The translations under genes were made by a program, and so were the position numbers. The notes below the pieces were generated by a model. That model saw only the letters and a list, made by a program, of their open reading frames with translations. It did no database searches and was not told the origin of the DNA. Shown one piece after another: positions 14,909 through 40,261 of a DNA stretch of 64,000 nt. Each line of letters begins with the position of its first letter. The first letter of the stretch is position 1. This DNA is from Phytomonas francai (taxonomy: Eukaryota > Euglenozoa > Kinetoplastea > Trypanosomatida > Trypanosomatidae): NCBI GenBank assembly GCA_001766655.1, contig MJCC01000002.1, forward strand, positions 1,538,157 to 1,602,156, in the 5' to 3' direction.

Positions 14909-17900
14909 TTAGCGGCGCTGTTTCCTCTGCCTCGAAATGCGCCACGAGCTGCCTGTCTCCCATGACTTTAGCAGAGGTGTGAAGCGCTCGGCCTCCTGCT
15001 CCCGTGTAAGACGCCGACCTTTGGGTGGACAGGTATAGAAAGCTGGAGCTAACTCTACCAGCCACTTCGACTCAATAGTAAGCAACTCCTGCATGTATTC
15101 TCTATTAGTCAGTCGGAGATCATCATAGAGGACGTATTTGGGTGGGTCATCAACAAGCACCGAAGACGGGTGGATGTACACCTCACGGCGCTCCGCTAAA
15201 GTGACAAAAGATCGTGTATGAGAGTCCACTCGCTTCGCGGCGTGGAAGAAGTACCCGGCGGTAATAGCACGGCGAACCTCAGTGAGATTGTTGTCATTTG
15301 CGTGAGAAATATTAGTGTAACGGCTTGTAAGCATATCCTTCAGTTGATCGCGCGTATCACGGGCCTCAACCAACATGCGGTACTTGACAAAGTTGCGCCG
15401 GCACCACTCCTCCGACATCCCACTCTCAACCCACATGTTGTAGACCACCATGAGAGTAATTTGGTCACCTTCAGGCTGCCAAAACTGCCGCTTTGCGGCG
15501 TCTGCAGCCTCCTGCCGATCACGTGGACGGTAGAAAATGCCACGTTTCTGCGCAGCAAGCATCGACACAATTGTTAAGACTGGTTCGCTGCAGCCAAAGT
15601 CAACTGCTGTAAGCAGAGTTTTGCTCTGGAAAGGATCGACAGAAAGTTGTGCCATGCGGCCACCCAAAGGCGTTAGTGAGCCATCGTCATCCAGCGCCTC
15701 GAGGTAGCGCAGCTTTTCCAAGGCTGCCACAATCGCTTCTTGTGACGGAGGGTCCATAAGATTGACGCTGAAGAGATCGATCCCCATCGCCTTCAGCTGA
15801 AGCGTTACATGAAAGAGATTTGCACGCATAATGTCCGGGACTGTCTCTGGTGCCATGTCCTCACGGAACTGCAACTCGGTGTATATGCGAAAGCACTTTC
15901 CGGGACCGATACGCCCTGCACGACCCCTGCGCTGCTCTGCCTGCGCCTGCGAGATGGGAACCACTTTAAGCTGCTCCACCTCGCGCTTCGGGTTATAAAG
16001 ATTCTGTTTACAATATCCGCTGTCTATGACGTAGTAAAGATTATTGATCGTGATCGACGTCTCAGCAACATTAGTGGCAAGCACAACCTTGCGACAACCA
16101 GGTGGTGTGGCTTCGAAAACGCGCGACTGAACCTCCTGCGGCATCGTAGCTGTTAGAGGTAGTACTAGCATGTCAGGGATAGGAGTATCTGAGCTCTTAC
16201 GCAGAGCCTCCATCCAATGGAACAGCATCTCGCCGCCCGTCTCGATTTCTTCCTGTCCAGTAAAAAAAACCAGCACATCTCCTGGAGGCTCTTGTAAATG
16301 AATTTTCATAACCGTCTGAAGCGCAGTGCGCACATAATCAGTGGTAGGTTCAGCTATATAGTATGTGTCCACCGGAAACGTGCGCCCCTCAATGATAAAG
16401 GGTTGAACGATCCCAAAGTAGTCGCAGAATTTCTTAGTCTCCAACGTCGCTGAAGTAATCAGAACCTTGAGGTCCGTGTGTTTCTGAAGGGCATTGCGAA
16501 CAATGGCAAAGAGAAGATCGGTGTTAATGGACCTTTCATGGGCCTCATCGAGAATAATCACGCTGTAGCGCGCGAAGCTGTCATCCAGAAGTGCTTCCCG
16601 CAGCAGCATACCATCCGTCATGTATTTGATCCGCGTGAGTAACGAGGTTACGTCGCGGAAGCGCACGGTGTAGCCGACCTCCTCACCAAGGCGGCAGCCG
16701 TACTCCTCGGCGACACGCGTGGCCAACGTCTCGGCCGCCACACGCCGTGGCTGTGTGCAGCAGATGATACCCTTCTTGGCGTAGCCATGCTCCGCGAGGT
16801 ACTGCGGGATTTGCGTCGTCTTCCCACTGCCCGTCTCACCCACCAAGATGGTGACGCTGTGCGTGTCAACGTATTCGAGAATTTCAGCGCGTTTACGGTA
16901 GATAGGGAGCGAGCGGCGCTGCCGCTGCAAGTCCTGCGTGCTAGGTGGAATGCCGAAGTGCGGTTTGCTTCCGAAGCTGTGCCGCATCCACGGTGGTAAT
17001 TTTGCTGGGAGATCCCTAGCCCGGAAGCCGCCCTCCTCGGGGACTTCATCCAGCTCTGTGTGCAGAAGATCCCGTGAGGAAAAAGTGGTGACAGTTGCCT
17101 TGCCATCAGCAGCAGCAGTGATATCTTCCGTGTCGGCCCCCGCAGTCGGAGAAACTGGGTCATCAGAAGGCTGTTGTTCCTGACGACGCTTCTCCTTTCG
17201 CGCGATCATGCGGCGGTCCATCGTAATTCGCATCTGCATCTCCGCCACACGCTCCATGTCATTGAGGCGACTGGGATCGCCCTGCGTGCTCTGGGCTATG
17301 CGGTCGATGACATTCTGTCGCTGCCAGGGTGTACGGGCCTCGCGCAGCTGTTGAGAAGGTAATAATATGCGATAATTCAGCTTCCGTCTGAAAGAGGCAA
17401 GTCCGAGATTACGCAAGAAGCGTGGTTCGGACTCATTCAGCTCGACAGCGTCATCGTCATCGTCCTCAGCACGAAGATTCAAGAGGTCAGCTTCATCGGC
17501 TAAACCGCTGCGCACGTGTTGTGCCATACGAAAGAGTTCCTCTGGTGAAACCTTCATGGCTGCCTTGCGCTCCATTGGAGAGACGTCCATGGTCTCCGCG
17601 CCTTCTCTAGATTGTTGCTTCTTCTCAGCCTCCTCCGCTGCCTTTTGAGACTCTGCAGCAAGCTGCATTGCTCCAACCACTAATGCCGTCTCGACATTAG
17701 ATGGCGTCAACGTTTCGGATAGTGTCTCGTACAGTTTCCCAACTTTTTCTAAAGGGATTTCGTCTTCAATGCTTTCAGGAGCATCATCATCCACCCCATG
17801 GCCGTTAATGGCGCATGCGAGCGCGTGTACGATGGTCTCCGCTGTATCTAGAGCCTTCTCGACGGTTTGGTTGTCACTGTTGGACGAAGACAACTCGTCA

Positions 17901-18085
17901 ACTTTAGATATATACAGTTTTAGTAGGAAGTCCACATCTTCGTAAAACGCCTCCCTTTCATCTGAGTTCGTTGGCGCCCCCAGCATATGCTCCAGCTTAT
18001 TATACAATTCGTTTTTGCAGTAAATCTCCTGAAGTTTATGGAGGAAATCACGTGATTCCTGCTCCACCTTTGTAAATTCCTCCAT
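14909..18085 (-). CDS. PRP22: DEAH-box splicing helicase PRP22/DHX8
   Basis: 1058 residues from ATG 18085. An N-terminal ~370-residue region contains an acidic stretch before EPRFLRNL and a segment PPWMRHSFGSKPHFG just before RRSLPIYRKR, both of which match the DHX8 layout. The helicase core has motif I GETGSGKTT, Ia TQPRRVAA, motif II DEAH, motif III SAT, motif V TNVAETSITI and motif VI QRRGRAGRIGPGKC. Winged-helix, ratchet and OB regions follow (VYNMWVESGMSEEWC, RAITAGYFFHAA, VYIHPSSVL, LYDDLRLTNREYMQ). The C-terminus FTPLLKSWETGSSWRIS matches the DHX8-specific end and separates it from PRP2/DHX16. Known role: release of spliced mRNA from the spliceosome. In kinetoplastids it would serve mainly trans-splicing. 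Complete, with all catalytic motifs present. Confidence 0.9.
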   Translation of the reverse strand: MEEFTKVEQESRDFLHKLQEIYCKNELYNKLEHMLGAPTNSDEREAFYEDVDFLLKLYISKVDELSSSNSDNQTVEKALDTAETIVHALACAINGHGVDDDAPESIEDEIPLEKVGKLYETLSETLTPSNVETALVVGAMQLAAESQKAAEEAEKKQQSREGAETMDVSPMERKAAMKVSPEELFRMAQHVRSGLADEADLLNLRAEDDDDDAVELNESEPRFLRNLGLASFRRKLNYRILLPSQQLREARTPWQRQNVIDRIAQSTQGDPSRLNDMERVAEMQMRITMDRRMIARKEKRRQEQQPSDDPVSPTAGADTEDITAAADGKATVTTFSSRDLLHTELDEVPEEGGFRARDLPAKLPPWMRHSFGSKPHFGIPPSTQDLQRQRRSLPIYRKRAEILEYVDTHSVTILVGETGSGKTTQIPQYLAEHGYAKKGIICCTQPRRVAAETLATRVAEEYGCRLGEEVGYTVRFRDVTSLLTRIKYMTDGMLLREALLDDSFARYSVIILDEAHERSINTDLLFAIVRNALQKHTDLKVLITSATLETKKFCDYFGIVQPFIIEGRTFPVDTYYIAEPTTDYVRTALQTVMKIHLQEPPGDVLVFFTGQEEIETGGEMLFHWMEALRKSSDTPIPDMLVLPLTATMPQEVQSRVFEATPPGCRKVVLATNVAETSITINNLYYVIDSGYCKQNLYNPKREVEQLKVVPISQAQAEQRRGRAGRIGPGKCFRIYTELQFREDMAPETVPDIMRANLFHVTLQLKAMGIDLFSVNLMDPPSQEAIVAALEKLRYLEALDDDGSLTPLGGRMAQLSVDPFQSKTLLTAVDFGCSEPVLTIVSMLAAQKRGIFYRPRDRQEAADAAKRQFWQPEGDQITLMVVYNMWVESGMSEEWCRRNFVKYRMLVEARDTRDQLKDMLTSRYTNISHANDNNLTEVRRAITAGYFFHAAKRVDSHTRSFVTLAERREVYIHPSSVLVDDPPKYVLYDDLRLTNREYMQELLTIESKWLVELAPAFYTCPPKGRRLTREQEAERFTPLLKSWETGSSWRISRQRKQRR

Positions 18086-19223: not shown

Positions 19224-22200
19224 CTAATGTTCAGAAAACGTTTTCGTTACACCTTCATGCTCGGCCTCTTCTTCCAGAGTACGAGGTGCTTTCATTAGAG
19301 ACGGCCGTCTCCTCTTCCGCGCCAGTGCGGCGCAATGCGACACCCTCACAAAGCCATATGGGCTCCGTCCCTCATTATTCAACTCTCCGATCTCAACCAA
19401 CCGGTCAACTGTGACGACGAAAGAGAGGCCGAACACGGCGTACTCGGCATTCCACAGCTCAACTAATCGCTTGTCAGGGTTGTAGGACCGTACTAAGGCG
19501 GTACTGCTGTCCATGTTCGCTATTCCATGCGCCTTTAAGACGTTGTAATTGAGGAGGAGGACGGTTTTATTGATGTGCGTGGCTTCCCTCAACAACTCGT
19601 CTAATTCGTCATCGATGTCTAAATCGTCAATGGCCTCCACAACAACGTCGTTATCTTCAGTGTCATCATTCTCACCTTTATTTACCTCCATCGCACTGGC
19701 TTTTCGGGACTTCAGGAAAAGACTACACACCTGCGCCATTAAAGGTACGTCAACTTTTTTGTTGATCACAGACAGAGATACCTCGACATCGCGCCAAGCG
19801 AACGCCTGGCTACCACGTCGGCGCTGGTCGTTCATCGTTTTAAGGTAAGCCTCGTAGAAGATCTCCTCAGGACTGTAAAAGCAACCGATCTGAGAAAAGG
19901 CAAAGGACAGGCCTTGGAAATGAGAACTGGGGCTCACGTGAAAAGCGTTTTGTACGGGCAGTAGCTCCAGCTTGAAGTCGGCACACTGTTCTGGTTTGAA
20001 GTCGCACTGTTGACCCCGACCACGACAAACAAGAAGACAGCCACGAGCACGGTGCTTGATCGTCTGAGGCGTGTCTTCGATAGCATTGTAAAGAGTCGAA
20101 AGGTGGACTGACCAGGTACGCTCATAAACATTCGGGTTGCAGTCTGATACTACGACACCCCCTGTTGCCGCAACCATGCCAACCACAATTCCAAGGTTTC
20201 CAAAGGGATTCGAGGTACCATTCACATGGATGTAAGAGCTATCGAAGTCGACAATGAGAACTCGATTCTTCTCATCTGCAAGCGAGGTCTCAATCATGCT
20301 CCTGAACTCTTGAAGACTAAACTGTGGTTGTCCGTCTGCGCCCAAGTCACCATGCCGTACAGTGACCTCAACATCACTGTCCAACCCACTAAATCGCAGA
20401 TACTGCGTCAAACACACATGCACGGTCTCCAAAGTGAAGAGTCGAATGAGCAACGAGGATACGTCAAAGGGGAGAGTATGAATTACATCGTCAAAGGTAG
20501 TAAACCATCCTAGGCGGCAGCAAGTCATAGCAATGATTGTTGGCATCAGCGGCATGCGTGGAAAGTTAAAGGTATCTACAACAGGTGTTAGATTCTGGAA
20601 GTCCCACTTGTGCTGCTGCGACAATAATTGTAAACAGGACTGCACCATCGGAGCGACCTCCCGCGGCGCCCCGACGGAGCGATTGCTCACACGGGCAGAC
20701 TCTTTATAGAAGATCATATAACCATTGCCCGTCATGGCCATGTGCAGACGGTCCAGCAGACAGGTCCAGGTGCGAGAAAAGGTCTTGGGATGCGCATCGA
20801 TGAGTAGGACCGTTTGGGTCTCCTGGTCGTAGCCTGCAAGCAAGCACCACTGCTGCTCTTCCGCGACGTTGAGCACATTATGTGCGACACCGGCGTTGTA
20901 CATGATGACCATCACATACGCCGGGGCCTCGGGATCCTTGTTAGCATCCTTGACGTCGAGGATAATAGACTCCAAATCGAAGATCGAAATCGTTGGTACC
21001 GCGTCTTCACGAGATATCTTAGTAAGCACAGGATATAAGTCCACCCCATAGGGCCGCTTTGTGCGTTTCGTGTATTCTACGGCGTACTCATACACCTGCA
21101 CCAGACTTAGACAGCCATCCAGAAACACTGTTGACGGGAACTTCATAACGCGAATGATGTCCGATACGGGAAGTCCATTGCCGTAGCCATGGCTCCCAGG
21201 ACGTACACCACCCAGCAGGTGCATAGCCCAGGCCACAGCGGCGATGTGAGGGCTGATGTGATGCGAGATGATAAGCGCGTGTGTGCCGAGCTGCGTCGTA
21301 CCCAGTACTTTGCCACTACACAGTTCTGGCGTCCATAGGAGCCGGATTTCGTCGCTTGTGAACTCGGGAACAGAGTCCTTCTTGAATATTCGAATGAAAC
21401 CGCGCGCACGATGGCCCTCCTTGGATGTCATCATCGCCTTGAAAAGCGACGATGCCGGAACCTCCGTCAGCTTCACATGGGGAAAGTTATTGACAACTCC
21501 TTCCGCTATAGTTACCATCAATTGCACAGCGTTGCGCACATCCACTATGACAGCGTAGGCTCCAACATCCTTTCGGGAGTAGATGCGCTGGTGATGGTGC
21601 TGGTGCCGTGAGTTCCCCAGTACAGAGGTGGCAAGTGGCGAGTTAATTTCATCCTCGTCATCGTAAGCGTCTACCATCATCTCCTGCTCCAGCACGTAAG
21701 GTTCGTAGTTGACGATTCGAATGACATCAGTCTCTTCCTCACAGTCCTGTGTAATAAGTCGACTAAATTCAGGGAGCTGCATGCGGGTTTGGCGGTCACC
21801 AACTTCATTTGGCCCAAGTTCGACCTGTCCCACCGTGGGAAGCACATCAAGATGTAGAGTCTCTAAGCTGTAGATCCCCTTAAAACGGTTGTCAACGTCG
21901 AGGAACTCTCGCACGATGTCCGTCATGACCGGGAGATGCGGCGGACCACTGTGAAGAAAATGCAGTGGCACCTGCGCGGCGAAGAAGATGTCCTCGACGG
22001 TAACGCGCTGGCGGCGGTCACTGCAATCCTTACTTCCCCCAAGGAGGTAACTCAGCCCAACGGCCAGGGCACCAAAGTGACTGCACGGCATCACGTCCTT
22101 TAACGCGTCTGCATCGTCAACTTCATAGCCCTTGAATAACTTCAGGCGCGCGCGCTTGATCTCAAGCGAGTACTGTCGGCTGTGCTTTGACGGATTCCCA

Positions 22201-22577
22201 GTAGCACCCGTGGCTCCCGCTGCATTCATTGAATTAACTGCGCCGAAGCCATAGGCCTTAGAATCTATGGCGGTCGGTATGAGTCGCGTGCGGTTGAGAC
22301 TGTTTGAAACCACAAAAGCGTCTGCTGGTGTAGAACCATTAACGGCATTACCCACGTTGTTAACGGCGTCCATAGGAAAAGAAACCAGAGATGAATGTCG
22401 ACGGATATCTTGCTCTGAGGCATCTTCCTCGCGCTCGGAGACGCGAGTTGTGTCGCCATGAATACGGTCCTGATCGATAGCCCGCCTGTTGTTGGCAGAA
22501 AATGCCACCATTTCATTTAAAAACTCATCCCATTGCTGGATATGCTCCTGCAATTGCACCGATTTCCCGCTCCCCAT
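19224..22577 (-). CDS. Four tandem phytochelatin-synthase-like pseudoenzyme units
   Basis: 1117 residues from ATG 22577. The N-terminus MGSGKS fits an N-myristoylation signal. After a ~150-residue variable leader I see four copies of one fold, near residues 160-400, 430-625, 672-855 and 876-1085. Each opens with an alpha-helix in the position of the PCS active-site helix (SHFGALAVGLSYLLGG, SPHIAAVAWAMHLLGG, MPTIIAMTCCRLGW, SSHFQGLSFAFSQIG) and closes with a strand-rich part like the PCS GHFSPIGGY...ILDVAR...LLWDAM region, clearest in copy 2 (CLLAGYD, LLIDAHP, LLDRLHMAM) and copy 3 (VVVSDCNP, HLSTLYNAI). The catalytic Cys is replaced by F, I, I and F and the His is lost. The Asp is kept in copies 2 (D594) and 3 (D812). 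Predicted inactive, membrane-attached scaffold; function unknown. The fold call is by eye and needs a profile search. Confidence 0.75.
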   Translation of the reverse strand: MGSGKSVQLQEHIQQWDEFLNEMVAFSANNRRAIDQDRIHGDTTRVSEREEDASEQDIRRHSSLVSFPMDAVNNVGNAVNGSTPADAFVVSNSLNRTRLIPTAIDSKAYGFGAVNSMNAAGATGATGNPSKHSRQYSLEIKRARLKLFKGYEVDDADALKDVMPCSHFGALAVGLSYLLGGSKDCSDRRQRVTVEDIFFAAQVPLHFLHSGPPHLPVMTDIVREFLDVDNRFKGIYSLETLHLDVLPTVGQVELGPNEVGDRQTRMQLPEFSRLITQDCEEETDVIRIVNYEPYVLEQEMMVDAYDDEDEINSPLATSVLGNSRHQHHHQRIYSRKDVGAYAVIVDVRNAVQLMVTIAEGVVNNFPHVKLTEVPASSLFKAMMTSKEGHRARGFIRIFKKDSVPEFTSDEIRLLWTPELCSGKVLGTTQLGTHALIISHHISPHIAAVAWAMHLLGGVRPGSHGYGNGLPVSDIIRVMKFPSTVFLDGCLSLVQVYEYAVEYTKRTKRPYGVDLYPVLTKISREDAVPTISIFDLESIILDVKDANKDPEAPAYVMVIMYNAGVAHNVLNVAEEQQWCLLAGYDQETQTVLLIDAHPKTFSRTWTCLLDRLHMAMTGNGYMIFYKESARVSNRSVGAPREVAPMVQSCLQLLSQQHKWDFQNLTPVVDTFNFPRMPLMPTIIAMTCCRLGWFTTFDDVIHTLPFDVSSLLIRLFTLETVHVCLTQYLRFSGLDSDVEVTVRHGDLGADGQPQFSLQEFRSMIETSLADEKNRVLIVDFDSSYIHVNGTSNPFGNLGIVVGMVAATGGVVVSDCNPNVYERTWSVHLSTLYNAIEDTPQTIKHRARGCLLVCRGRGQQCDFKPEQCADFKLELLPVQNAFHVSPSSHFQGLSFAFSQIGCFYSPEEIFYEAYLKTMNDQRRRGSQAFAWRDVEVSLSVINKKVDVPLMAQVCSLFLKSRKASAMEVNKGENDDTEDNDVVVEAIDDLDIDDELDELLREATHINKTVLLLNYNVLKAHGIANMDSSTALVRSYNPDKRLVELWNAEYAVFGLSFVVTVDRLVEIGELNNEGRSPYGFVRVSHCAALARKRRRPSLMKAPRTLEEEAEHEGVTKTFSEH

Positions 22578-26509: not shown

Positions 26510-29500
26510 TCACATTTGCTCCATCACACTCGTGGCTATATCCAGAGCCAATTCATCGAATGCGACCTCCAATGTACATCTCAGGAGCCCACTTGGCTGC
26601 GGGTTTCCCTCAATCCTTGGTGCCTGCTCCCCCTCCTTTTCTACGCCATCGGTTACCCCCGCGGCTCCAGTCGAAGAATCAGCGATAGGGAGCCGGGTCA
26701 TCTTGTGTTGTTTAGCCAATAAGTCCCTGTAATACACCGGCTCCTCGACAAAACAAGGTTGGGTAAAGGCTGATTGAATATGGGGCTGTGCAATCACCAT
26801 GTGTATCATCTCGTCCAATACATTGCAGGACACTTGAAGCTCTTCCATCGTGATTGGTCCAGAAATGTCTAATGGCTGCGAATCTGTGTAGAGATGCATG
26901 AATGGCTGGTAGACTCTTGTCTTGGCCTTCTGTTCATACAGTAACTCCCAGGAATCCACTGGCATGATACGCGCCTGGAGAAACAGTTCCAAAGTGCAGT
27001 ACATCGCGGTCCCTTGCGAGCGATCGTCGAGGTCGAGCAGGTTATCTTCGTTTTGGCGTCGGGCTTCTTCTACAAGTCTGGACAGGGCACTCAGACCCAT
27101 AGATTCTGGCCGGAGGGTTGTCACGGGCAAACGTGGGGACGTTGCCCCTCGTGGTTTATTCTGAAGAAAGGTGCTACGCTGGGCTGCACCTCCAGCAGCT
27201 ACCTGTGTGGTGGCCGCACCAGACGCGGAAAGCCCGAGACCATCTGCTGCTATGAACTCCTCGACATCCGCCGGCGTCCGCGCCGATACAGCGGACTTTT
27301 CTAAAGTTCCTTTCGGTATCTCTGCGCTTATCGCTCGTTCGTTAGTAACCATGCACAGAATGGGCCATGAGAGCTGTTGGCTTACACTACCAGTATTGAA
27401 GGCAATCCGGCATACGACACGTCCACCGTTGGGAGGGATAATTCCCTCCTTGGGGTTTATGAAAAGGTTGTGGTTGCCATTCGTATGAGAAAGGCACCAT
27501 TTGAAAGTGTAACCGTCCGTAGGGTGGTGGTTCGTCAGTGTGCAGCAGCGGCGGTAGAGCGCATGGAAAGGCACTGCACCGAAGGTCATCACTTCAGTGG
27601 AAAGGGACACTGGAGCCTCATGCAAAGGTACGTGACATGAGCGGGCGCCCTTGGAAACTGTGGCAGGTATGGAAAAAAAAGAGTTGTCAATCCACTGCCG
27701 AATTTCCCTAACAGGGGTTGTATGGGGGTGATAACCACGGCCGATCAGTGTGAGAGTGTAGCTTTCACCCGCATCGGTGTAAATGGGTACATCCATCGTA
27801 TATTCGATAGCCTCAAGCGGCCTGAAATACCATGGAACTGACGCTATAGAATACGGCGCGAGCGTGCCCACTGGGGAGACGCATTGTAGAATAGGGAAGT
27901 TGTAGTTCCGTTCAGCGATAGCCCGAATGGAATCGACGCCTACAGTGTAAGTTACCTCTCGGTCAAGTGGGTTCTCCAGGATGATGGACTGCATCGGTGG
28001 TTCCATGTCGCCTAACATCACAGGCTGTAGATGATAGACAGACGAGCTGTGATGAAACATCAGACAGCTCATACCAGCCGACATAGTGCGCCCCTCAAGC
28101 AGCACCAAGGCCCTCTTCCTGTCGTCAAGTCTGAACACAGCTGGGAGGACATGTGTGCCAACCTCACAAAAGCGATAGGTTATGGTCACGACAACGATGT
28201 CGCCTACTCCAATGGTGGCGTGGCGCGGCTTGATGTCAATAAGAGAAGCATTCAGGATGTGTTGGATACCACTGAGATCTTCCTGCTCAACAAACCACGT
28301 TTCCTGGCTCACATCCGCCTCTGTCGGCAACAGCACTGTGAAGGAAGTTTCGCAATCCCCGGTATTCTCCAATACTAGCGAAATGCGGATTGATGGCGCG
28401 TGCTGGAAACCCACTGCGATGTTCATCGCAATAGGCGCAAGGCCGTTGATGTACTCATGAAAAGCGTAAAACGATGGATCTGCATCGCTCGGATGTACCG
28501 AGGCAGCGAGCTGAGCATTGAGGTCATTAATAGACAGGCGCCGCCATAGAGACGATCGCGGCTGAGTAAGTGAGCGGACATCAGCAACCTGCACCGCTGA
28601 GCGCCTGGTACGGACTGTCAATTTACAGTGTGGATGACCCAGGACCTCCTCAAGCGTCTCAGGACTGCGTGTGCTACTAAAGTCAGCCATGCCAGCCATC
28701 ATTGCATATAGAATGTACTCATAAACACCGCCACTAAGAGAGGAAGATGGTGTCACAAGGACGGTGCAATGAGCCCGCGCGGGGAGGGTACCAGTGTGGT
28801 TATAAAGCACCGGATTCGGTGACTCTTCCCCCAACCCAGCTGGGCCAGACACAACCCAAACACGTACTTCGTATGCCAACTCACACCTACCGCTATTGTA
28901 AAGCGTGAGATTCGCAGTGTTATGCTCCTCGAGGCTGTTCGGTTCGCCTCGCTCAAGGGTCATAACAGTAGGTTCGACCTCTAGTTTCCCATAGACACCT
29001 TCAGCGTTCACCTGCCATGTGATGGTGTACCCACAAAACGCTTCAGATTGGGTTTTTTCAAGAAGTGGAGGAGCCTCTTCATGGGTAATGTCGTCGGTGT
29101 CACGCAGGAGAAGCGTTACACTCCCCTTAAAGCTCGACACCGTCTCAGGCTTAAAGAAGACTGTCAGATGAGAGCGTTCCCCACCGTTTAAAAGCCCCTC
29201 CGCTGGCTCAAAGCGCAACACACCCATGAGATCAGGAGATGGTATTAAGAGGTAAGCAATGGAAAGGGAAGTTGGGTTATGCATCTGAAGCTCGTGGCGA
29301 GATTCCCCAGTCACACAGGTAGGCTTCAAGAGGAGCTGCCTACCGTCAATACTCATGGATGCCCCCGTGACGACGAGGTGAGGTACGTCCGACTCGCCTA
29401 ACAGCCTCAGCTTTACCGACTGCGTTTGTCTTCCACAAAACGCGGTGAGCATGGCCTCCGCCTCGAAGTGAGCGTAACTTGTCGGATGAAAGCTGTACAC

Positions 29501-31999
29501 AAACAGAGCACGCTGGTGAGGTTCTACCCATCCTGCAGAGGGGCTACATGCAAAGACCGCGGCAGTGTTGGGTAGAGACGGGGTATTAGAGGACCTGATT
29601 CTAGCCTTTTGCAAGATGGTACCCTCGTCCGAGATGAACATGGGCACAACACCCTCCCTCAGCTTTTCACTCACTCGATGTAACGCAGCGCCAGTGATCT
29701 CGTACGAAATAAATGTGTCAGTAAGATTCAACAGGGAGATAATCTGGTACGTTGTACCACCAACACGAGTGGCAGTAAACGTTATCATTGTACTGCTTAC
29801 TTGCACGAGGGTTTCATCCTTCGTGAATTGCGGCGCGGCACTAGGATGGCACTTAAGAAAGCAAGACACAAAAAAGCAGTGTGGTGGAATAAATGTGTGC
29901 TGGTCCACGTTTCTGAAGGACCGCATTCGCGCATAGGACATGTAGCATTCTAAAACCTGTGCACACCCCGCCTCTCGCCGTGGTACCGGAATGGAAGGAA
30001 CCACAGACTGATCATTACTATCTCTATCCAAACTTAGCGTGACCTGAAATGTGTATTGTTCGCCTGCTGGTATCTCCTGTTGCGTTGGGGAAACAACAAA
30101 CATGGAGCCTTTGTGGACGACCCATACAGCGATAGCTGCTTCGGCAGCGTCGTTACGCACAAGGACCGTCTGGATCTGAGGTCTTTCATTAAATTCGAAC
30201 GCAAGAAGTGGCTTTGATTCCATTGAAAAAGGACAGGGCAGTATGTGGTTAAGAAAACGAAGCATGTCGCCGATCGCCATGGTCCCGACCCGCCGTTGCG
30301 CAACCGCAGCGTCTCCATTCATGGAGTTGGCCTTTTCCTTGTTCAATCGCCACATCGCTTGTAGACGTTCTAATGAGATTACTGGGTCACTAGGCATCGC
30401 TCTTAAGTCAGAGAAACTGTCCTCTAATTCTCCTGAGGTGGCCCTCGCCAACATATCGAGTTCCAGAGGTGTGTACAACCCCAGGCCGTGTTTCATATAC
30501 CTGAAAAAAGTTTCAACCTCTCGAAACCCAAAGAGCGGCGGACGAGTGACGGCATTGTAGGCAGAGCCGAAAAGATCGACAAAAAGGGTGCCTGAAAGCA
30601 TGTTCTGCACAAAAATAAACAATCTACGGAGGTAGTTAATTGGTTCTGTTGGATAGAAACGTACCTTCACATAAACGCTCTTTCGAGGCTCGATTGCACC
30701 GCAGCTTGGTTCAACCGAAAAGGCCCCACCTGGCGTAACCCCATAAATCTGAAAATATGTAAGAAATTTACCTTTGTTTTTAAGTTGGACCACCTTAGTG
30801 GAGGTGCGTTCGTCACGGGCCGGTAACTGCTCCAAGCTGATGTCGCCAAAATCCAAATAACTTGTTGAGGCAGATACATGGGAGGTACTAAGCATACCAG
30901 TTGCACTCACATGAAGCACGTTTCCAGCCACAGCGCGAAGCTCAAACGTATTGGTGTAACGGTACGCTGCACTTCCTTTAGCTCTGTAAGTCAAAATTAG
31001 ACTCTGCTTTGTATTGCACGAAATTTCAAAGTCTGCTAAGGATTCCCCAGGCGATTCCAAGGGAAATAAGGACGATGGGGAAGGCATTCGTGGCGTCTCA
31101 ACATTGGGCAAACTGAGCTGAAAAGGGCATTCCACGTTGTCGTCCTCACGTCGCACCTTAACGCGGGCTGTCACAAGCGAGGGGTTATCCACAAATAGCT
31201 CGTAACTCTGAGTGCTACCGGCGGCGACCGCACCAAAATCTATGCACGCTTGGGTATGATTGATCTGATGAAACTGCGCTGTATCTGGGCACATTTTAGT
31301 TTTTACCCGGCACTTGGCAACACTGGACTCTTTGGTAAAAGAAATATGTGGGTACTTGCCCACACCTGAGAGTTCAATGACAGCCAAGGCCTCATCAATG
31401 CTGGCCAAGCGGCAAACACCCTGCGCAAAGACAGGCCGAGCATCCAATGGAGTGAAGACTATCACAGCCTTGAGAGGTTCATTGGGTTTCAGGAAACCAC
31501 GCTGCGGAGTGATCAGAAAGGGTGATGGCACGTCCCAAACGAACTCTAAAGGAACCGTGCCTATATTAGTCATAGACATCCGCTCCTTCGTAGGGAACCC
31601 AACAGGGCAGAGTTGAAAATCATGCCTTTTCGGCGTGCAACGTAGCTTGGCATAGGGTATACGACCCTCTAATTTGATATTAAAGGACCCTTTTCCGTGC
31701 ACTGTGACCTCAATATCATCGTGTACCTCGACTACCTCGAGAGGGCAGAAGGTTACATCTAAAGTAAAAGACACACCACTTCTCAGAGTGACAGGTTCTG
31801 GAAATGGTGTAAGAAACGTGTTCCTGTACTTAGGCAACTTGAAGCTTATGGTCTGTGAATCTCTCTCAACATTCTTGAGAATCACTTGTAGTGTGTACTG
31901 ATGTCCAGGCTCCCAAATTTTCCACACTAGGAGGTCATTGCAATCAATTCCAAGCTTCTGTCGCCTTCTCTCCCGTCTAGAGCACTCCGATACGGCCAT
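26510..31999 (-). CDS. CFAP65: CFAP65 (CCDC108) axonemal central-pair protein
   Basis: 1829 residues, close to human CFAP65 (about 1900), from ATG 31999. The N-terminus is diagnostic: DLLVWKIWEPGHQYTLQVIL, then ISFKLPKYRNTFLTPFPEPV and SGVSFTLDVTFCPLE, lining up with the CFAP65 opening (VWKGWTPGGEYT...FPQPITL...FRPVE). The rest is a string of Ig-like ASH/MSP/HYDIN beta-sandwich repeats, recognisable by recurring phrases such as GFLKPNEPLKAVIVFTPL, GGERSHLTVFFKPE and NGGRVVCRIAFNT. The C-terminal part has low-complexity and helical stretches. CFAP65 is a central-pair apparatus component needed for ciliary and sperm motility, so here it is expected in the motile flagellum. No catalytic motif. 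Orthology is well supported by the N-terminus; the exact projection it belongs to is not visible from sequence. Confidence 0.85.
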   Translation of the reverse strand: MAVSECSRRERRRQKLGIDCNDLLVWKIWEPGHQYTLQVILKNVERDSQTISFKLPKYRNTFLTPFPEPVTLRSGVSFTLDVTFCPLEVVEVHDDIEVTVHGKGSFNIKLEGRIPYAKLRCTPKRHDFQLCPVGFPTKERMSMTNIGTVPLEFVWDVPSPFLITPQRGFLKPNEPLKAVIVFTPLDARPVFAQGVCRLASIDEALAVIELSGVGKYPHISFTKESSVAKCRVKTKMCPDTAQFHQINHTQACIDFGAVAAGSTQSYELFVDNPSLVTARVKVRREDDNVECPFQLSLPNVETPRMPSPSSLFPLESPGESLADFEISCNTKQSLILTYRAKGSAAYRYTNTFELRAVAGNVLHVSATGMLSTSHVSASTSYLDFGDISLEQLPARDERTSTKVVQLKNKGKFLTYFQIYGVTPGGAFSVEPSCGAIEPRKSVYVKVRFYPTEPINYLRRLFIFVQNMLSGTLFVDLFGSAYNAVTRPPLFGFREVETFFRYMKHGLGLYTPLELDMLARATSGELEDSFSDLRAMPSDPVISLERLQAMWRLNKEKANSMNGDAAVAQRRVGTMAIGDMLRFLNHILPCPFSMESKPLLAFEFNERPQIQTVLVRNDAAEAAIAVWVVHKGSMFVVSPTQQEIPAGEQYTFQVTLSLDRDSNDQSVVPSIPVPRREAGCAQVLECYMSYARMRSFRNVDQHTFIPPHCFFVSCFLKCHPSAAPQFTKDETLVQVSSTMITFTATRVGGTTYQIISLLNLTDTFISYEITGAALHRVSEKLREGVVPMFISDEGTILQKARIRSSNTPSLPNTAAVFACSPSAGWVEPHQRALFVYSFHPTSYAHFEAEAMLTAFCGRQTQSVKLRLLGESDVPHLVVTGASMSIDGRQLLLKPTCVTGESRHELQMHNPTSLSIAYLLIPSPDLMGVLRFEPAEGLLNGGERSHLTVFFKPETVSSFKGSVTLLLRDTDDITHEEAPPLLEKTQSEAFCGYTITWQVNAEGVYGKLEVEPTVMTLERGEPNSLEEHNTANLTLYNSGRCELAYEVRVWVVSGPAGLGEESPNPVLYNHTGTLPARAHCTVLVTPSSSLSGGVYEYILYAMMAGMADFSSTRSPETLEEVLGHPHCKLTVRTRRSAVQVADVRSLTQPRSSLWRRLSINDLNAQLAASVHPSDADPSFYAFHEYINGLAPIAMNIAVGFQHAPSIRISLVLENTGDCETSFTVLLPTEADVSQETWFVEQEDLSGIQHILNASLIDIKPRHATIGVGDIVVVTITYRFCEVGTHVLPAVFRLDDRKRALVLLEGRTMSAGMSCLMFHHSSSVYHLQPVMLGDMEPPMQSIILENPLDREVTYTVGVDSIRAIAERNYNFPILQCVSPVGTLAPYSIASVPWYFRPLEAIEYTMDVPIYTDAGESYTLTLIGRGYHPHTTPVREIRQWIDNSFFSIPATVSKGARSCHVPLHEAPVSLSTEVMTFGAVPFHALYRRCCTLTNHHPTDGYTFKWCLSHTNGNHNLFINPKEGIIPPNGGRVVCRIAFNTGSVSQQLSWPILCMVTNERAISAEIPKGTLEKSAVSARTPADVEEFIAADGLGLSASGAATTQVAAGGAAQRSTFLQNKPRGATSPRLPVTTLRPESMGLSALSRLVEEARRQNEDNLLDLDDRSQGTAMYCTLELFLQARIMPVDSWELLYEQKAKTRVYQPFMHLYTDSQPLDISGPITMEELQVSCNVLDEMIHMVIAQPHIQSAFTQPCFVEEPVYYRDLLAKQHKMTRLPIADSSTGAAGVTDGVEKEGEQAPRIEGNPQPSGLLRCTLEVAFDELALDIATSVMEQM

Positions 32000-38626: not shown

Positions 38627-40261
38627 CTAGCTTGGTGTATCCCTTGTATTTCTCCTCTGAAATTCACGAAGTTCTTCATTTGAAAAGGAGCCATGATTCG
38701 CATCAGAACGAGCCCTCTTTCGTTCCGGTAACGGACGCTGCGGCTTGAGTCGCAGTGGCTCATCCTGGAACAAGTCGTCATTCCCACACAAGTCGGCACG
38801 TACACTCTCCCTGGCACATTCGTGACTGATAGCCGGTGCATCTGACACATGGGATAGTGCCTGGTACAGTTCCGAGACTTGCTGGCGGCGCTGTGTAGCC
38901 AACAACAGCTTCAGCTCTACCTCTCGTACAGCGTCTTCTAGTGCTGTAGCTGCGTTAATTTGCGGTCCTACAGGACGAGAGGCCGTGCTCAGCCGAGCAT
39001 TTTCGTTTTCAGCCGCTGACATCTCCAGCACCAACGCACGGGGTTCATGCTGCGGCATTCGTCGGGACGGGAGTTCCTCGGACCCTATGATACCACTTTC
39101 ATCGCTCGGAAAATGTGAAGCATTTTGGGGTGCAATAGGAGGATTGATGGTCTCACGCCGCGGCGATGGTTCTGAGTAAAGGGGCAATTCTACCGGTATG
39201 AATACACGCTGACGGCACATAGGGCAATCATTGTGCGTGTGCAACCAGTGCCGCACGCACCGGCCATGAAAAACGTGACCACAAGGCAGTTTCTTTACCT
39301 GTTCGCGATTCGAAAAGTCGTCTAGGCATATACCGCAAGCCTGCTCAACAGATGCTGGGATGTCCTGCAACCGAGTAAGGATCCGTTGGTACGCTTGCAA
39401 GTTGTCTCGTTTTCTGAGCGTGGTGAAAAACGAAATGAGGACAAGAATCTGCACCACTAGCGGCATCTCCCGTGGAGAGTACATCCAGGACAGAAATGTG
39501 GTGAACAGCATGCAGACATAGCGACAGACCAAATCGAACTCTATAGAATTAGGGTCGATCATAGTGTCCTCAAGGTCATGCGTAGTGTACCCTTTCTTCG
39601 ATAACCATCGGGTAAGAAGAGGGTATCCGATGGAATGCTGAAAGCAGGTCATAAAAAATATGAAAACTTGAATGGCGTTTACTGCAGCCCTAACGGTGGA
39701 TGTGTACCACATAAATATGTCACCCTGCTGCAAAGATACCTTACTGGAGTGGAGGCTGGAAGGCAAGACGTTACTTGCTGCTGTTGCTGTGGGTAAAGTG
39801 GCATAATACGCCCACTGCAGAACGTAAAAAAACAGTAAAATCACACACCACAGTGTAGTACGTAGCTTTTGGTATTTCGTGCAGTGGTTCCAGCGGCGCA
39901 CCCACACACCCAGGCGACTCTTCCACACACCTAGCGCCACATTAGAAACCATTGCAGCACTCCAGTACTTCAGTGCAGATCGCGCACAAAACACGTGGAC
40001 GACGGTGCTCGCTAGCATGTAACCATACTCAGCCTCGCTTTCGAAAGCATCGATGCCGTAGGTGGATGGTAATGTTCCAAACTCCATGACTATGCGCGCC
40101 ACAGCCTGAGAGGTACAATACACATAGGTATTAAATAGCAACCACGAGGAGCAGAGGAATCCGTAGACTAGGAAGAAATGTGCGTTCCAATAGGTTAACA
40201 GGCAAACAGCGATGATGATCCACGCTTTATTCGCATTTACATAAATCATAGTAATCAGCAT
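38627..40261 (-). CDS. HRD1/synoviolin-like membrane RING-H2 E3 ligase
   Basis: 544 residues from ATG 40261 (a second ATG four codons in is possible). The N-terminal 280 residues are hydrophobic with about six membrane spans, e.g. 12-48, 80-96, 136-155, 190-206, 246-260 and 266-280. A RING-H2 finger follows at 309-349, with C309, C312, C327, H329, H332, C335, C346 and C349 in ACGICLDDF ... LPCGHVFHGRC ... CPMCR. This order and the linker match HRD1, the ER-associated degradation ubiquitin ligase. The C-terminal ~190 residues are polar with a predicted coiled segment (ALEDAVREVELKLLLATQRR) and charged repeats. gp78/AMFR-type ligases are the alternative, but no CUE domain is seen. Confidence 0.75.
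   Translation of the reverse strand: MLITMIYVNANKAWIIIAVCLLTYWNAHFFLVYGFLCSSWLLFNTYVYCTSQAVARIVMEFGTLPSTYGIDAFESEAEYGYMLASTVVHVFCARSALKYWSAAMVSNVALGVWKSRLGVWVRRWNHCTKYQKLRTTLWCVILLFFYVLQWAYYATLPTATAASNVLPSSLHSSKVSLQQGDIFMWYTSTVRAAVNAIQVFIFFMTCFQHSIGYPLLTRWLSKKGYTTHDLEDTMIDPNSIEFDLVCRYVCMLFTTFLSWMYSPREMPLVVQILVLISFFTTLRKRDNLQAYQRILTRLQDIPASVEQACGICLDDFSNREQVKKLPCGHVFHGRCVRHWLHTHNDCPMCRQRVFIPVELPLYSEPSPRRETINPPIAPQNASHFPSDESGIIGSEELPSRRMPQHEPRALVLEMSAAENENARLSTASRPVGPQINAATALEDAVREVELKLLLATQRRQQVSELYQALSHVSDAPAISHECARESVRADLCGNDDLFQDEPLRLKPQRPLPERKRARSDANHGSFSNEELREFQRRNTRDTPS

Follow-up and report, generated by a model that had tools for sequence, protein, structure and literature searches.

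Which constraint keeps a peptidase-like fold repeated within one protein when none of its copies holds a complete catalytic triad? This question is raised by a gene in a stretch of 64,000 nucleotides of Phytomonas francai DNA (hereafter the window; GenBank assembly GCA_001766655.1, contig MJCC01000002.1, positions 1,538,157 to 1,602,156 of the forward strand), in which a sequence-only reading had described four degenerate phytochelatin synthase (PCS)-like units in one myristoylatable protein. The gene is an uninterrupted open reading frame (ORF) with an ATG start (19224..22577, (-); 1117 amino acids (aa), stop included) on the minus strand, where all 16 listed window ORFs of at least 300 aa are located. 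Judged from its sequence and predicted structure, its product is a pseudoenzyme of four tandem PCS-fold units, each with an incomplete triad. We see roughly an even chance that this four-unit trypanosomatid pseudoenzyme is held at a membrane via predicted N-myristoylation and works as a multi-site scaffold.

Four predicted PCS-fold units in one protein

A homologue search returned 38 proteins with identity down to 34%, and across the 39-sequence alignment, identity to the window protein ranges from 35 to 86%. The AlphaFold2 model obtained with this alignment (mean predicted local distance difference test score (pLDDT) 73.9, predicted template modelling score 0.68) shows four alpha/beta units at about residues 134-400, 417-630, 643-855 and 870-1085. 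Unit 1 (residues 130-405; 21363..22190, (-)) and unit 4 (residues 866-1085; 19323..19982, (-)) have a predicted PCS fold, unit 2 (residues 410-632; 20682..21350, (-)) has a papain/PCS-like fold, and unit 3 (residues 640-860; 19998..20660, (-)) is a PCS domain by sequence. Self-BLASTP of the protein gave no off-diagonal match, so the repeat is detectable only by profile or structure. Comparison of unit profiles with hhalign linked units 2 and 3 with a probability of 99.25%, units 1 and 3 with 98.2%, units 3 and 4 with 97.4% and units 2 and 4 with 96.8%, followed by the weaker pairs of units 1 and 2 (81%) and units 1 and 4 (just 1.6%).

Relationship to phytochelatin synthase

Searched against the Protein Data Bank (PDB) at E<=10, the family profile matched nothing but the PCS Alr0975 (best E 3.2e-5), reached via unit 3; phmmer with the single protein against the PDB gave chance matches only. 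PF05023 was the sole Pfam family matched by the window protein at E<=10 and by the 39 members at E<=0.01, with no calpain domain. It was found in 22/39 members at the latter threshold (best E 5.9e-11), and its match to residues 743-841 of the window protein (E 1.4e-4) scored 21.6 bits, under the Pfam cut-off of 24.9. Searches of the P. francai genome with PF05023 and a typed PCS gave no match, but were insensitive, one of them missing the window's own gene too, and hence carry little weight on whether a canonical PCS is absent.

We then aligned the single units by hhalign to a 57-sequence PCS profile, comprising 55 loci, a copied Nostoc sequence and a typed Arabidopsis sequence, with the partial matches L059 and L060 left out. 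Probabilities were 97.4% for unit 3, 64% for unit 2, 49% for unit 1 and 8.5% for unit 4, and a profile merged stepwise from unit 3, unit 3 of a paralog described below and units 2, 1 and 4 matched PCS with 98.45% over 187 columns. By these hhalign and merged-profile results, unit 3 is the hub tying the repeat chain together. Complementarily, structure searches with predicted models covered units 1, 2 and 4, unit 3 being modelled inside the whole protein. PCS was the best match for units 1 and 4, its identity to units 4 and 1 in the VIA alignments being 11-17%, and unit 2 matched papain-like chains.

A four-fold repeat or PCS link conjured up by profile noise would agree with the Pfam match below its cut-off, the empty self-BLASTP and the low probabilities between units 1 and 4 and between unit 4 and PCS. 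Such an artefact is hardly credible, however, as five of the six unit pairs reached 81-99%, compared to a top probability of 11.8% in 616 control comparisons with reversed or column-shuffled profiles, and two structure models rank PCS first. The four tandem units with a PCS/C83 fold, as first proposed from sequence, were thus borne out by the AlphaFold2 model, the structure matches and hhalign probabilities above controls. With PCS (MEROPS C83/PF05023; Nostoc Alr0975, Arabidopsis PCS1), the protein shares the unit fold; units 1 and 3 also have its closing RG-x strand, and units 2 and 3 its Asp with a Trp ten residues on. In contrast to the one catalytic domain of PCS, it has four units, lacks the Cys-His-Asp triad and starts with MGxxxS.

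A collinear paralog in the same genome

The genome holds a four-unit paralog (G000:C34, L003:1240-5961; 1573 aa), the gene to which 30 homologues were found (family A2; 31 aligned members). The listed Leishmania and T. cruzi members of this family are annotated as hypothetical. The two families align collinearly over 857 columns (hhalign 100%, E 5.5e-71), which suggests that the tandem existed before the two genes split. Tandem duplication with later loss of catalysis in every copy, as the sequence-only reading proposed, is one possible order of events. In the hhalign unit set, which holds units 2-4 of the paralog (V2-V4), units 2 and 3 paired best with their counterparts (U2-V2 99.6%, U3-V3 99.9%), and the pairing of unit 4 was indistinct (U4-V4 96.6% versus U4-U3 97.4% and U4-U2 96.8%). 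PF05023 was matched at E<=0.01 in 15/31 aligned members. Against PCS, hhalign gave 81% for unit 3 of the paralog, 0.2% for unit 2 and 0.1% for unit 4; a search of alignment A2 against the PDB yielded no PCS, and its top matches came from the low-complexity N-terminal part.

Despite the collinear four-unit layout, the paralog differs from the window protein: in this genome its N terminus is extended by a long low-complexity stretch, its family mostly lacks the MG start (present in 3/31 rows), and both His and Asp are kept in unit 2 (31/31 each). The own-genome paralog ORF begins with MSNV, and its alignment row was cut.

Catalytic columns of the four units

Catalytic columns were assigned through the alignment of unit 3 to PCS, which for unit 4 yielded the Cys column only. 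The Cys columns correspond to S166 in unit 1, L677 in unit 3 and S885 in unit 4; in unit 2, alignments differ in placing it at I441 or at P443. None of the 39 sequences carries a Cys at the aligned column of any unit, and none of their four units contains a Cys-His-Asp triad within one domain. The sequence-only claim that Cys is replaced in all four copies therefore holds for the column itself, but overlooks the neighbouring C165 of unit 1 (Cys in 36/38). Nor did any copy regain Cys at the column in the 39 orthologues, a possibility that had been raised for relatives; in unit 4 of the paralog, C801 (22/31) and C803 (28/31) lie 2 and 4 residues past the aligned Cys column.

The His columns of the window protein read A340 in unit 1, Q576 (20850..20852, (-)) in unit 2 and N794 (20196..20198, (-)) in unit 3. 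A340 is Ala in 29/38 sequences and His in P0033, Q576 is Gln in 38/39 and His in one (P0026, T. vivax), and the N794 column holds His in 1/39 (P0025). Loss of His, as described earlier, hence applies to units 1-3 of the window protein, but not to P0026 at 576, P0025 at 794 or unit 2 of the paralog. Asp was expected to survive in units 2 and 3, and it does: D594 (20796..20798, (-)) is found in 39/39 sequences and D812 (20142..20144, (-)) in 38/39, each followed ten residues on, as in PCS, by a Trp present in 39/39 (W604 and W822). The Asp column of unit 1 lies at about A358/E359.

These columns also bear on nomenclature, as 'Phytochelatin synthase' is the name given to at least 5 of the 38 homologues listed, despite their having no Cys at the catalytic column. 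A working PCS, as some database names imply, would fit this label and the PF05023 matches in more than half of the members, yet it is contradicted by the sequence: at the aligned columns of the window protein, units 2 and 3 retain only the Asp, and unit 1 has lost all three residues. We consider it very improbable. Judged by these residues, the family of the window protein is something other than PCS, and the database name is misleading.

Mean identity to the window protein is 0.61 for unit 1, 0.64 for unit 2, 0.55 for unit 4 and 0.41 for unit 3, compared to 0.22 for the linker that precedes them. Units 1, 2 and 4 are thus conserved although the triad is gone, which points to a constraint acting without catalytic residues. 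A rival reading is ligand sensing, in which a gamma-glutamyl thiol, be it glutathione, glutathionylspermidine or trypanothione, or else a metal-thiolate would be bound but not turned over by one or more degenerate units, which would report it at the membrane. The exact PCS spacing of D594/W604 and D812/W822 speaks for this option, as do additional invariant residues in unit 2 (H444, 38/38; H566, 39/39; W577, 39/39). However, unit 3, the nearest to PCS by sequence, is the least conserved of the four, and H566 is replaced by Val in the paralog. We therefore regard ligand sensing as possible, albeit rather unlikely.

Unit 1 residues C165 and H206

C165 (22083..22085, (-)) sits one residue before the catalytic-Cys column of unit 1 and, in the AlphaFold2 model, directly before the helix bearing that column. 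H206 (21960..21962, (-)), a unit 1 His present in 35/38 sequences, is kept in both paralogous families. In the paralog alignment, the C165 counterpart is Cys in 29/29 rows with letters, and H206 corresponds to the invariant H31. This conservation would be expected if C165 and the unrelated H206 formed a re-purposed thiol or metal site, possibly with non-PCS catalysis. We nonetheless find this proposal doubtful: C165 misses the aligned column by one residue, the His column of unit 1 is mostly Ala and its Asp column Ala/Glu, and the two residues are not lost together, P0034 and P0037 retaining only H206, and P0013, P0019 and P0033 only C165. Their order also differs from that in PCS.

C165, H206 and the other kept sites could represent relics of the enzyme, positions that contact a ligand, or parts of a re-purposed site. 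Remnants of the triad are spread over units and paralogs, with Cys of unit 1 in both families and, in unit 2, His plus Asp in one paralog and Asp only in the other. It is likewise improbable, in our estimate, that such remnants, shared out in an ancient pair of proteins, make up a composite or re-purposed thiol/metal site, in which case the protein would be a membrane-bound trypanothione- or metal-responsive regulator and not an inert scaffold.

Predicted membrane anchor and proposed scaffold function

The protein begins with MGSGKSV (residues 1-7; 22557..22577, (-)), a predicted N-myristoylation signal. The myristoylatable start noted in the sequence-only reading turned out to be conserved, with MG in 35/39 sequences and Ser/Thr at position 6 in 34 of these 35 (MGxxxS/T); in P0019, MGSGQS is preceded by an upstream Met. 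An N-terminal helix in the AlphaFold2 model (residues 7-36; 22470..22559, (-)) follows, and residues 1-36 show 39% mean identity to the window protein in 36 homologues. The subsequent linker (residues 37-129; 22191..22469, (-)) is of low confidence (pLDDT <50 at 37-100 and 102-129) and poorly conserved (22% mean identity in 35 homologues).

The conserved lipid-attachment signal, the incomplete triads and the conservation of units 1, 2 and 4 in spite of them together argue for a protein that is probably a membrane-anchored scaffold rather than a metal-detoxifying enzyme. N-terminal myristoylation, as the conserved signal predicts, would together with the N-terminal helix put the protein on a membrane, and the flexible linker would supply reach. 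The four units could then bind partner proteins, probably residing in the membrane-cytoskeleton layer, through their papain-like clefts and surfaces. More generally, a structural or ligand-binding role, as proposed from sequence, is plausible.

Several observations weigh against a membrane-held scaffold. Position 6 is occupied by Ile in the T. b. gambiense member (P0021), and the paralogs mostly lack the MG start, so this architecture does not in general entail a membrane anchor. The near-invariant C165, H206, H444, H566, Q576 and D594 may just as well point to a ligand or to a re-purposed active site. Finally, we found no report on localisation, interaction or lipidation, and passages of two N-myristoylome papers omit the protein.

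The logic of a membrane-anchored scaffold resembles that of the kinetoplastid calpain-like protein CAP5.5. According to passages of a paper on this group (PMC13317235), most kinetoplastid calpain-like proteins lack essential catalytic residues, and T. brucei CAP5.5 is both myristoylated and palmitoylated and is essential to the subpellicular microtubule array. Common to the CAP5.5 family and the window protein are thus a peptidase-like domain mostly devoid of catalytic residues and N-acylation, which is predicted here and reported for CAP5.5 in those passages. In contrast, CAP5.5 has a single central calpain-like domain instead of four C83-type units, and its location at the subpellicular array is reported.

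The four-unit fold has appeared in print, in section 3.5 and Fig. 9d of the Chainsaw paper (PMC11256964), for an uncharacterised Leishmania infantum protein, with a drug-target remark on such a four-repeat protein. The protein is unnamed in section 3.5 and may belong to the family of the window protein or to that of the paralog; unlike the present work, that section does not take up catalytic residues, myristoylation or distribution. Among the matches listed in a search of open-licence full texts, the only ones searchable, this panel was the sole publication on the architecture, and no functional study of it appeared. A conserved, probably membrane-anchored pseudoenzyme of Leishmania, Trypanosoma, Phytomonas and others, together with a partly different paralog, offers a clean system in which to ask why a dead peptidase fold is kept.

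Homologue family and neighbouring genes

Homologues with a named organism come from Leishmania, Leptomonas, Porcisia, Novymonas, Trypanosoma, Strigomonas, Angomonas and Phytomonas; the one from Phytomonas sp. Hart1, entered as an unnamed product, is 85% identical to the window protein. Named organisms in the homologue and paralog listings alike are trypanosomatids only, and metagenome/SRA entries carry no organism; the label 'Tbor' we take to be Trypanoplasma borreli. Lengths are 1075-1261 aa in 35/38 homologues, the three shorter ones having 939, 860 and 664 aa. Alignment A3 omits P0032, which lacks unit 1. An iterated search with the A1 profile returned 35 proteins with a single newcomer (P0069, left outside all counts), but missed some earlier matches and the entire paralog family; as known members escaped it, its silence on other lineages carries little meaning.

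Adjoining the four-unit gene on the same strand is a DEAH-type RNA helicase (window 14909-18085; PF07717, PF00271, PF21010). A 1829 aa ORF at window 26510-31999 (-) matches the Ig-like domains of CFAP65 (PF24507, E 5e-52), a cilia- and flagella-associated protein, and a 544 aa RING-finger protein (PF13639, E 1.5e-15) lies at window 38627-40261.
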